From Acidobacteriota bacterium (lineage in GTDB: Bacteria > Acidobacteriota > Terriglobia > Terriglobales > Acidobacteriaceae): a DNA stretch of 34,449 nucleotides. Made by a program: the position numbers and the translations under genes. The stretch is taken from contig JAJYFA010000023.1 in the NCBI GenBank assembly GCA_021790995.1, positions 1 to 34,449 on the forward strand, read 5' to 3'. The notes beneath the pieces are model-generated. The model was given only the letters and a program-made list of their open reading frames with translations. It was not told the DNA's origin and did no database searches. Positions 12,990 through 26,362 of the stretch are shown piece by piece; the stretch's first letter is position 1; every line of letters starts with the position of its first letter.

Positions 12990-13088
12990 TGTACGATGCC
13001 TGCCCTCGCGCTCTCGCGTTCCCCTCGAATCGGCAACATTCTCCGCGGCGGGTGGCCACGGTCCCAGGTGCCTGTTTCAACCACGAAT

Positions 13089-13128
13089 GAGGGTGCCCCC
13101 GGTCCCTCGCACTTGGGGACCGGGGAGG
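13089..13128 (+). repeat. Hairpin repeat family 1, copy A
   Basis: A 40-bp unit contains a perfect 10-bp stem CCCCGGTCCC / GGGACCGGGG around the loop TCGCACTTG. An identical 40-bp unit lies inverted at 13342-13381, and a diverged one at 16980-17017. It lies between the divergent glycosyltransferase and GH13 genes. Confidence 0.85.
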
Positions 13129-13341
13129 GAGAACCCACTTTTTCGGTTCAACCCAACCGCAAATGGGGTAACCTGAACGCGCATGGAAGGCGAGCGCAGC
13201 GGCGAGGACTGGTTGAAAAACGGAGGAGTGGATGTGGTCGAGTTTTCGGCATGATCAGTCGGGCGTGCGCGGAACCGTGGAGATCGAGTCGGAATGGACA
13301 GCGCGCGAGAGAGGCTGGCAACTTCCCGAGTGGATGCGCTA
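13129..13341. other. 213-bp segment between the inverted repeat copies, no gene seen
   Basis: The stretch enclosed by repeat copies A and B shows no protein-like frame and no recognised RNA. With the repeats it forms a 293-bp unit that could be a miniature element or a paired repeat island (BIME-like). The full gap between the two divergent genes, 12990-13643, holds only this unit and a possible promoter. Confidence 0.4.
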
Positions 13342-13381
13342 CCTCCCCGGTCCCCAAGTGCGAGGGACCGGGGGCACCCTC
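13342..13381 (-). repeat. Hairpin repeat family 1, copy B (inverted)
   Basis: This is the exact reverse complement of 13089-13128 over all 40 bases. The flanks differ immediately outside the 40 bp, which defines the unit's borders. Confidence 0.85.
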
Positions 13382-13534
13382 AGTTGAATCATTCCTGCCA
13401 TAGAATCGTGGTCACCCGCCCCGCACGCTGATCGATCGTGGCGCAGGCGCCCAGCGCCTTGAAATCGGTAAGGGCCTGTCAGATGCCTACCCACTTCCTC
13501 GCGCCTTCCGCTGCGGCAAACCGCTTCGTCCGTT

Positions 13535-13540: not shown

Positions 13541-13643
13541 CACAGTTTCCGGCGGCATGATCGTTCTGATGTACCTTGGGAATAGGCTGCGGTTGTGTCC
13601 CGGCGATCAGGCAGATGTGGAACGGAGTTCGGCAAACGTGACG

Positions 13644-16600: not shown

Positions 16601-17432
16601 CCTCACAAAACTTCTTCGCTCGGCCATGCACATGACGTCCGTCGAATCGCTGTTCCCGTCACCGTGGACCGCGGCCGCGCGCAGCGTGTTGCCCAGCCCC
16701 AGCCCGCAACTCACGGCAACCGAGATGTGGGGCCCTGTGCTGGCCTGGTGCGTGCTGGAGTGGCTCGCGGCATCCATCGATTCAACGCAAACGGAGCGCA
16801 CGGCCCTTGACCTCTTCGATCGTCTCCGTCTGCGCGAACCGTTTGGCCAGGCCTTCACCGCGCTCGGCTTCAAGGGCGAAGAGGCCTGGCGCGCCGCCGC
16901 GCGCATCAAGGTTCTGCTGCTGGCCGAAGCAGGCGTCGGCAAGGGCGAGGAACCGGAGACTGAATCAACCCCAACCGCCGGTACTCCTGATCCCTCGCAT
17001 TTGGGGATCAGGGAAGGGAACTCCGCGCCCGATGCTTTGCCATCGGAGACCGAGCAGGTTGTCCTCGCGCCCGCTCTCTGGCTCGACCCTGACGTGCGCT
17101 GGCTCTGCGGCGTCCACGAGGCGGAGGGCCACTTCTACCTGATTCGCGAACAGTACGAAGAACTATTGTGGTGGCTGCTCATGCCCTCGCTTTTGCAGTT
17201 GGCCGGTGAGGCTGCGCCCAGCCGCGCCGCGGCCGAGGAGCTGAGCAGGACCGTTGCCACGGCTCTCAACTCTGCTGAAGCCGCGGGCTATCGCATCAAC
17301 ACGCTGCTCGGGCCGCTGGCAGAGTCGGAGACCGACGAATCCGCAGCGGCCGAACCGGAGCCTGGCGACCTCGACGCGAGCGCGCAGCAATCAGCCCGCG
17401 AAGCGGGCGACATACGGTCGCCACAGTCGTAA
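13644..17432 (+). CDS. Very large GH13 (alpha-amylase superfamily) protein
   Basis: The product (about 1262 aa from ATG 13644) has about 300 helical N-terminal residues, then a GH13 barrel. Region I is DMVPNH (Asp420-His424). Region II is VIRFDAAMTLAKRHF with nucleophile Asp540. Region III is LLLAEAFW with acid/base Glu605. Region IV reads SNPDERTA with Asp666, where the usual NHD His is Pro665. About 450 C-terminal residues of unknown fold follow. GH13 enzymes act on alpha-glucans or sucrose/trehalose-like substrates; the subfamily is not clear, and no signal peptide is evident, so a cytoplasmic role in storage-glucan metabolism is possible. The start is uncertain: GTG 13638 and ATG 13557 are in frame. 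A family-1 hairpin repeat is inserted in frame (GTPDPSHLGIREG, about residues 1113-1125), and the last residues run into a second repeat family. Confidence 0.8.
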   Translation: MEFHIARKARDRYGFAESLFSYNGNVILANLSACREFAHRMNQVREVEKHPELAVHAGQLFAMGLIDEASHVLMARYRQQFDSEVMTAALDWFSAQVGSGNLDKMLLTFVEQFPGQSVMRGLETPAQWLAGATDGLQHRAAALEELLLLWSANRNPAFKPFEELFEDRTLAEKTVYAQVTAQMQEYFATRPLIPVAGASPISLLDLLRAPIAGAPASLSDQLNLIRQLWKPLLGESLERFLLMAGEVLHEEELAIWMQFNPQAVQAREAAERHRRAGQQQWPSVVSHSEVPFFGDPAHEYEKFSPDTAWMPGTVLMAKSTYVWLAQLSRKYSRHIGRLDEIPNEDLAQLAHRGINTLWLIGVWERSRASRTIKQLCGNSEAVASAYSLFDYRIADDLGGEAAYIDLRDRAFRHGIRLASDMVPNHMGIDSPWVVEHPEWFIARPDSPYPAYSFEGPDLSLDSRVEIKIEDHYFEQSDAAVVFRRRDKATGETRYIYHGNDGTSFPWNDTAQLDYLNPAVREQVIQTILHVARLFPVIRFDAAMTLAKRHFHRLWFPGPGSSGAIPSRAEYGMNQAEFDRAMPHEFWREVVDRVAAEVPGTLLLAEAFWLMEGYFVRTLGMHRVYNSAFMNMLRDEDNAKYRSVIKNTCEFDPDIMKRYVNFMSNPDERTAIDQFGKGDKYFGVAVVMSTLPGLPMFGHGQIEGFTEKYGMEYRWPRYQEDPDHGLVQRHEREIAPLLKRRWLFAESAHFLLFDFFEPSGSVNEDVFAYSNRNGGERALVVYHNRYADAHGTVDLSAAYADKGSGQLRQSRLAEGLGLSGDRAKIVAFRDSLTGLEYLRRSGDLYDRGITLSLHAYQCHVFLDWRELHPTVDKPWDRLADWLNGRGVASLDDELVNLELKPVHDALRRFLAPELVRRFADVADHPRTVGAERAKKIERQRGEFLKDAGARAESLLSLVETAHVLSLVQADEPALTREAADAASLALALTKLLRSAMHMTSVESLFPSPWTAAARSVLPSPSPQLTATEMWGPVLAWCVLEWLAASIDSTQTERTALDLFDRLRLREPFGQAFTALGFKGEEAWRAAARIKVLLLAEAGVGKGEEPETESTPTAGTPDPSHLGIREGNSAPDALPSETEQVVLAPALWLDPDVRWLCGVHEAEGHFYLIREQYEELLWWLLMPSLLQLAGEAAPSRAAAEELSRTVATALNSAEAAGYRINTLLGPLAESETDESAAAEPEPGDLDASAQQSAREAGDIRSPQS
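16980..17017 (+). repeat. Hairpin repeat family 1, diverged copy inside the GH13 gene
   Basis: The stem is CCTGATCCC / GGGATCAGG around TCGCATTTG. Compared with copies A and B the loop differs at one base, while the stem differs at two base pairs, each changed on both sides. It adds an in-frame, linker-like peptide between helical C-terminal segments. Confidence 0.8.
17391..17412 (+). repeat. Hairpin repeat family 2, copy A
   Basis: TCAGCCCGCGAAGCGGGCGA with stem GCCCGC/GCGGGC lies in the last codons of the GH13 gene and so forms part of its C-terminal tail. A similar unit follows at 17461 and another, inverted, at 34171-34195. Confidence 0.6.
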
Positions 17433-26191: not shown

Positions 26192-26362
26192 CGGTTTTGA
26201 AAGGGCACGACTTTAGTCGTGCCGCATGATCCGATGGAAAGGAATCGGCCTTTAGGCCCTGAGGGACGGGGTTCATCTGTCAAAAACATCCCTCAGCGAC
26301 TAAAGTCGGGGCCTTTCTTGCTGCTCTTTTGGCACGACTGAAGTCGTGCCCTTTCAAAACCG
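26192..26362. repeat. 171-bp palindromic repeat island with 32-bp inverted ends
   Basis: The ends 26192-26223 and 26331-26362 are inverted repeats over 32 bp with one mismatch. Each end itself contains a 9-bp hairpin (GGCACGACT/AGTCGTGCC). The interior carries smaller palindromes: GGCC-TTTA-GGCC, CGACT-AA-AGTCG, and CTGAGGGA facing TCCCTCAG. It fills the gap between the hydrolase and the ABC transporter genes. No transposase is encoded, so it is a MITE- or BIME-like element. Confidence 0.85.

Follow-up and report, generated by a model that had tools for sequence, protein, structure and literature searches.

A hairpin repeat of about 50 bases lies in frame inside a GH13-type gene in the stretch of Acidobacteriota DNA that we analysed (34,449 nucleotides of contig JAJYFA010000023.1; hereafter the window). 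This repeat belongs to a family of REP elements (family 1). We consider it very probable that the family is dispersed as a single-stranded DNA hairpin by RAYT transposases, and that the copy in this gene was inserted in frame in a permissive loop of the enzyme, where it is translated as a linker. Copying as a structure, with a RAYT as the agent, is the most likely origin of the hairpin, as suggested by its membership of this family, by the covariation of the family stem, by the inverted pairs of hairpins found at RAYT genes, and by the relic of a RAYT within the window itself. Under the mechanism that we propose, RAYTs (Y1/HUH transposases) would disperse family 1 in the form of a single-strand hairpin, one such hairpin would have entered, with the reading frame preserved, a loop of the GH13-type enzyme that was permissive beforehand, to be translated there as approximately 11-17 linker residues, and insertions that are in frame and in tolerant loops would survive and subsequently decay. 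We infer that a RAYT catalysed the insertion in the window, and that selection against insertions elsewhere keeps the hairpins to particular loops. The features on which the argument depends are collected in Table 1.

Table 1 Features of the window considered in this study (positions are those of the window)
Feature	Position	Strand	Basis
Family-1 REP, left end of RAYT relic	13085..13135	+	R2 covariance model
Relic, C-terminal part of REP-associated tyrosine transposase	13217..13351	+	Similarity to G063 RAYT
Family-1 REP, inverted right end of RAYT relic	13335..13385	-	R2 covariance model
GH13-type (alpha-amylase catalytic domain) gene, 1291 codons	13557..17432	+	Pfam
Linker of the gene product, hypervariable and predicted to be disordered	16923..17072	+	71 linkers compared; AlphaFold2
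Family-1 REP copy inside GH13-type gene	16973..17023	+	R2 covariance model, 42.5 bits, E 3.7e-8
Hairpin: 5' arm 16985-16994, loop 16995-17003 (TCGCATTTG), 3' arm 17004-17013	16985..17013	+	10 pairs

The hairpin family and its stem

The hairpin in the gene reads TCCTGATCCC-TCGCATTTG-GGGATCAGGG (arm-loop-arm), and all ten of its stem pairs are standard, one of them a T.G wobble. A first-pass annotation, made from the letters of the window, had described it as a hairpin repeat, and so it is: a covariance model that contains no sequence of its own genome (G000) recognises the ten-pair hairpin with an E of 3.7e-8. This match, together with the 15-mer CCCTCGCAYTTGGGG, of which the 4.15 Mb assembly contains 6 exact copies (reversed control: 0), refutes the possibility of a chance palindrome in GC-rich coding sequence, notwithstanding that perfect stems of at least nine pairs also occur in gene bodies (5 in 91.9 kb), and that the 9-base loop motif alone, with up to one mismatch, does not exceed expectation in the window (18 occurrences against 20.98). 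Since the loop motif on its own is not above chance in the window, the signal is the loop plus the stem, and the motif by itself is useless as a probe. The loop had moreover been presented as nearly fixed (TCGCAYTTG); it is less fixed than claimed, and sister variants with other loops exist.

The consensus of family 1 is GGGTGCCCC-N-GGTCCC / TCGCNYTTG / GGGACC-N'-GGGGA, with a length of about 50 bases. A first covariance model (R1), built from 20 copies of the own genome with the copy at 16973-17023 among them, has at least 27 matches in that genome at E <= 0.01, and at the same threshold it has matches in 39 of 40 genomes of the genus, at 1 to 82 per genome, numbers which are lower bounds because about 148 candidates were scored per genome. 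All of the matches in G015, G020 and G027 are weaker than E 0.001, and G024 is the sole genome of the 40 for which no match at E <= 0.01 was found among the roughly 148 candidates scored. A second model (R2) was built from an alignment of 113 matches drawn from 94 sources (60 fetched stretches, 29 loci and five GH13 loci), in which the fetched stretches came from the best-scoring listed R1 matches and from which the own genome is absent.

Like REPs, family 1 is a short GC-rich hairpin repeat present in many copies per genome. Its 5' foot reads GGGTG in 98 of the 108 rows that have letters in all five columns (113 rows in total), a tag that is non-canonical for REPs, whose canonical tag is given as GT[AG]G in PMC6006769. 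The latter motif does occur somewhere within the first 20 letters of 22 of the 113 rows, yet not as a fixed foot. Searches of the window and six loci gave no Rfam match at or above the gathering score, and a known RNA family is accordingly rejected as the identity of the hairpin. A terminator or attenuator would also seem to be excluded as the main role of the copy at 16973-17023, given that it lies mid-gene with the frame open on both sides. Five loci of the own genome (L074, L075, L076, L085 and L087) carry family-1 copies with longer flanks in common, of the type CGATCCT...GCTGAGAATTTCTC..AATCCGCTACC, and these copies may therefore belong to a larger repeat unit.

The first-pass annotation had taken paired stem changes as a sign that the hairpin is selected or copied as a structure. 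Across the 113 copies from other genomes the stem does covary: in this sample, which was chosen (as the best-scoring copies) by a model that includes the structure and is to that extent biased towards pairing, 98.8% of 1107 stem cells are standard pairs, as against 95.6% in shuffles, and 23 cells show double changes, as against 3.0 +/- 1.5 in shuffles, with none of 500 shuffles reaching 23. The double changes are spread over three of the ten stem pairs, and when the partner column is slid by one their number is 1 to 3 and pairing is 59-78%. One stem pair illustrates the range of states, being C-G in 87 copies, A-T in 9, G-C in 7, T-A in 1, a wobble in 4, unpaired in 3 and a gap in 2. Uncompensated changes, which had been named as the sign that would speak against the annotation's view, do occur, but they are few (1.2% of cells in the 113 copies; in the own genome, the copy at C51:36372-36422 has one pair broken). 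Watson-Crick double changes (21 cells) exceed G.T wobbles (9 cells) among the 113 copies, an excess that would fit a DNA hairpin rather than an RNA hairpin.

RAYT genes and a relic in the window

In four other genomes, two inverted family-1 hairpins bracket a RAYT gene, as is characteristic of REPs (G063:C180, G060:C5, G002:C1 and G009:C9), and in G003 a RAYT stands beside a single family-1 copy. Four of these five RAYT proteins exceed the cut-off of the NCBIfam model REP_Tyr_transpos, that of G002 falling just under it (77.9 against 80). The C-terminus is full in G063 and G009 and departs from the others in G002, and the frame in G060 contains one ambiguous base. Taken with the stem covariation, the inverted pairs flanking RAYT genes support that part of the earlier claim according to which the hairpin is copied as a structure.

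The window contains what appears to be the remains of such a unit. Between the inverted family-1 copies that precede the GH13-type gene, the relic aligns over 45 residues, at 69% identity, with the RAYT of G063 that is itself flanked by REPs (E 1.3e-16), and it runs into the inverted REP, as do the genes of G063 and G009 and likewise that of G003, in the last case beyond an intervening stop codon. No intact family-1 RAYT was found among the PF01797 matches of the own genome (assembly 94% complete), and the local family-1 copies may therefore no longer be mobile. The PF01797 matches in question are an IS200-type gene on C27, in two pieces, and a RAYT on C254 that is flanked by another REP family. 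This second family (GGCACGACTTNAGTCGTGCC) is present in all seven genomes searched, with 3 to 106 exact matches counted over both strands (reversed control: 0), and hairpins of its type flank the RAYT on C254. The C-terminal coding sequence of that gene (L009 1246-1866) reads through the second-family hairpins (PQGLKPQDFEE...GTAEAVPF). An inverted pair of the second family (GGGCACGACTTTAGTCGTGCC type) is also found in the window, at 26192-26242 and 26312-26362, its members 69 bases apart.

The insertion in the linker of the GH13-type enzyme

The alpha-amylase (GH13) catalytic domain is the sole Pfam match of the interrupted gene, and its product reaches the cut-off of no NCBIfam model. Most orthologs align only from residues ~20-30 (window 13557-13640), so the true start of the gene may be downstream of 13557. 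Across the hairpin its frame reads ...GTPDPSHLGIREGN..., in agreement with the peptide PDPSHLGIREG given for the hairpin in the first-pass annotation, and the description of this peptide as a translated linker inside a GH13-type enzyme is upheld by the open frame, the Pfam match and the predicted disorder of the loop. AlphaFold2, applied to residues 861-1291 with an alignment of 52 sequences, gave a model (mean pLDDT 88.1) in which the REP peptide (model residues 284-294) lies in an unstructured stretch, with pLDDT 57 and 52 in the two blocks that contain it and helices with pLDDT above 90 on either side, and the peptide is thus predicted to sit in a disordered loop.

The 3' part of the gene is matched in 71 of 80 genomes of the genus, and we compared 71 linkers: 68 genus genomes contributed one each, and to these were added those of a second gene copy in G074, of one of two G015 matches (that with anchors) and of the outgroup G037. 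The lengths of all 71 are multiples of three. Among public genomes, 39 of 80 named loci have both anchors, and 23 of these 39 have 0-12 linker residues (Granulicella aggregans, Bryocella elongata and Edaphobacter lichenicola among them), as against 42 in the window; long linkers occur elsewhere, with 49 residues in Terriglobus albidus and 47 in an Edaphobacter bin. The linkers contain 13 perfect hairpins with stems of at least eight pairs in 12.3 kb (1.06 per kb), as against 17 in 91.9 kb of gene body from 28 orthologs (0.19 per kb), and hairpins of at least seven pairs with a 4-base T..A loop number 11 in linkers against 1 in ortholog bodies, although these counts are not independent, given the relatedness of the orthologs. 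The 11 T..A hairpins are located in seven linkers (G003, G004, G010, G060, G067, G019 and G099). Hairpins of family-1 type were detected by R2 in the linkers of 3 of the 71 orthologs, namely G000, G023 (two hairpins) and G099 (decayed), with one further weak match outside the linker in G017 (E 0.044). The pair in G023 represents a distinct insertion, and as both of its hairpins were included in R2 we quote for them the values of R1, which was built without them (E 2.5e-4 and 4.8e-3). Owing to the variability of the linker, no cleanly matching empty site for the window insertion was found among the linkers compared.

Relative to the two copies at the ends of the RAYT relic, the hairpin in the gene has two stem pairs altered on both sides (C-G to T-A and G-C to A-T), as the annotation had noticed, and a third altered on one side only (C-G to a T.G wobble), which it had overlooked. 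The 5' tag is CGGTA, against GGGTG in those two copies, and several stem and tag positions depart from the family consensus. One explanation for full pairing in spite of such departures is that a functional RNA or DNA structure is selected within the gene, for example in translation pausing or protein binding, in which case the two double changes would be compensations that arose in the gene; that G000 alone of four related linkers is fully paired is also explicable by selection. We regard this as very unlikely. The G099 ortholog has this insertion too, likewise in frame (GAPAPSHLENREGK, where the window has GTPDPSHLGIREGN), with 3 of the 10 stem pairs broken (R2 E 0.0015), and the linkers of G019 and G081, which have only the right-hand side of the insertion in common with it, look from their sequences like truncated remnants. 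The insertion consequently seems to be old and its stem free to decay, and the proposal that the hairpin itself is selected in the gene finds no support. Furthermore, 58 of the 71 linkers are without a perfect hairpin of at least seven pairs (a filter that misses the imperfect ones of G023), and no sign of a hairpin function in the GH13 mRNA or protein was found in comparisons of sequences, orthologs and models.

Both types of changed pair are also found in family copies elsewhere, and the T of one double-changed pair is common to G099 and the window copy; most simply, therefore, this double change is older than the split between G000 and G099 and did not arise as an in-gene compensation. On the reading that we favour, dispersal by a RAYT, the compensated pairs would most likely have been brought in by a family stem variant. 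In a tree of the C-terminal part, G000 groups with G081, G086 and G019 and the position of G099 is not resolved, so that an exchange of linkers between lineages is also a possible source of the insertion common to G000 and G099.

The proximity of other family copies in the window raises the alternative of gene conversion from, or recombination with, a copy already in the genome, such as one 3.5 kb away, in place of a RAYT-type event. The short right flanks are indeed alike (GGGAGGGAGAACC beside the 13085 copy, GGGAAGGGAACTCC at the hairpin in the gene), yet a longer flank in common with the nearby copies was not seen, these copies possess neither the T-A and A-T stem pairs nor the altered tag, and the insertion is old enough to be common to G099, all of which makes such a conversion or recombination very unlikely. 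Of the 32 listed own-genome matches, 30 were inspected, and none of these has the identical stem and flanks expected of a donor.

Family hairpins in loops of conserved proteins and their relation to known elements

Insertion into coding sequence is not confined to the GH13-type gene. In at least 15 of 140 family matches (the 113 and 27 of the own genome) the hairpin is embedded in a gene, with recognised domains surrounding or spanning it: S9 peptidases (three), GH67, a BNR-repeat protein, IleRS, an FAD/Fe-S oxidoreductase, a UvrD-type helicase-nuclease, RimM (two species), MnmA, Era and the GH13 gene (three). Two of these proteins, IleRS and Era, are essential. We surveyed 30 orthologs each of Era, RimM and IleRS, which were picked because an ortholog had a match and are not a random sample, using R2 at E <= 0.05 within the matched gene stretch. 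Matches were found in 7 of 30 species for Era (three of them weak, E 0.02-0.047), 3 of 30 for RimM and 6 of 30 for IleRS, in each protein all in one loop; when copies already in R2 are left out the counts are 6, 1 and 5, respectively. Other R2 matches in the Era and RimM loci fall outside the matched gene stretch. Loop lengths are multiples of three in all 30 orthologs of each protein. In Era the hairpins occur in both orientations, and in the IleRS of G009 the hairpin is read in another frame (GVPQVPRTWGPG).

In 14 of 30 species the IleRS loop is 1-5 residues long, and with hairpins in it the loop reaches as many as 42. Several of these 30 species have one REP hairpin, or two different ones, in this loop of ileS, and in others the loop is nearly empty, so that it offers a natural series running from empty through filled to decayed. 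The ileS loop of G063 (L407 489-566) combines the family ends (GGGTGCCCC...GGGA) with a different, perfectly paired stem of 20 bases, a sequence which suggests that the ends are conserved and the arms free provided that they pair.

In Nunvar et al. 2010 (PMC2817692), REPs and RAYTs form units (REPtrons) in which two inverted copies of a short hairpin repeat flank a transposase gene. Family 1 resembles these in being a multi-copy hairpin and in having an NF047646/PF01797-type gene between two inverted copies; it differs from them in its tag (GGGTG, not GT(A/G)G) and in its repeated placement inside conserved genes. Di Nocera et al. 2013 (PMC3733652) describe GTAG/CGTC REPs that are translated inside known genes, tRNA synthetases included, with REPs at about the same site in recB of two Xanthomonas species, and mention Acidobacteria solely in connection with TIR-flanked transposases (TIRYT). 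Some family-1 copies are likewise translated within genes, but their tag is neither GTAG nor CGTC, and here four unrelated genes each have family hairpins at one loop in several species. Intragenic REPs (PMC3733652) and RAYT-REP units (PMC2817692) are thus already known; what is new is a family whose tag, GGGTG, is non-canonical, and the recurrence of insertions at a single loop of each protein, the filling of which across species exceeds the recB example. No report of in-frame REPs in Acidobacteria was found in the open-licence literature searched.

Rickettsia palindromic elements (RPE) offer a further parallel, since according to published accounts they too are inserted in frame and translated in unrelated genes, with a length of about 150 bp (PMC10969869, PMC3733652). 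Family 1 also includes palindromes that are in frame and translated in unrelated genes, and we liken the two by mode and not by sequence; family-1 copies, in contrast, measure about 50 bp and flank RAYT genes. We know of no transposase for RPE.

Palindromes inserted in frame are already familiar from Rickettsia and from other bacteria, and to our knowledge their route of entry is still open. The family to which the inserted hairpins described here belong is found flanking identifiable RAYT genes, and the same loops of conserved proteins can be traced across 30 to 71 orthologs, from a nearly empty state through a filled one to decay, so that both a mechanism (whether RAYTs cut and insert the hairpins) and a consequence (the origin of new protein loops) become directly testable. 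As a tentative extension, which we hold to be possible but far from assured, a RAYT/REP system in this genus might act as a steady source of new loops in proteins, supplying hairpins with fixed ends (GGGTGCCCC...GGGA) and freely varying, self-complementary arms, in frame, to conserved and even essential genes, each at a single permissive loop (those of IleRS, Era and RimM and the GH13 linker), where they would decay to ordinary linker sequence, such that much of the variation in loop length between species would be fossil REP. The recurrent use of a single site may reflect target choice, for example of an existing REP or of a replication-exposed strand, as well as tolerance. A separate observation concerns G008, in which a cluster of seven family-type hairpins, all in one orientation and mostly about 80 bases apart, is found near rimM (L315 816-1454).
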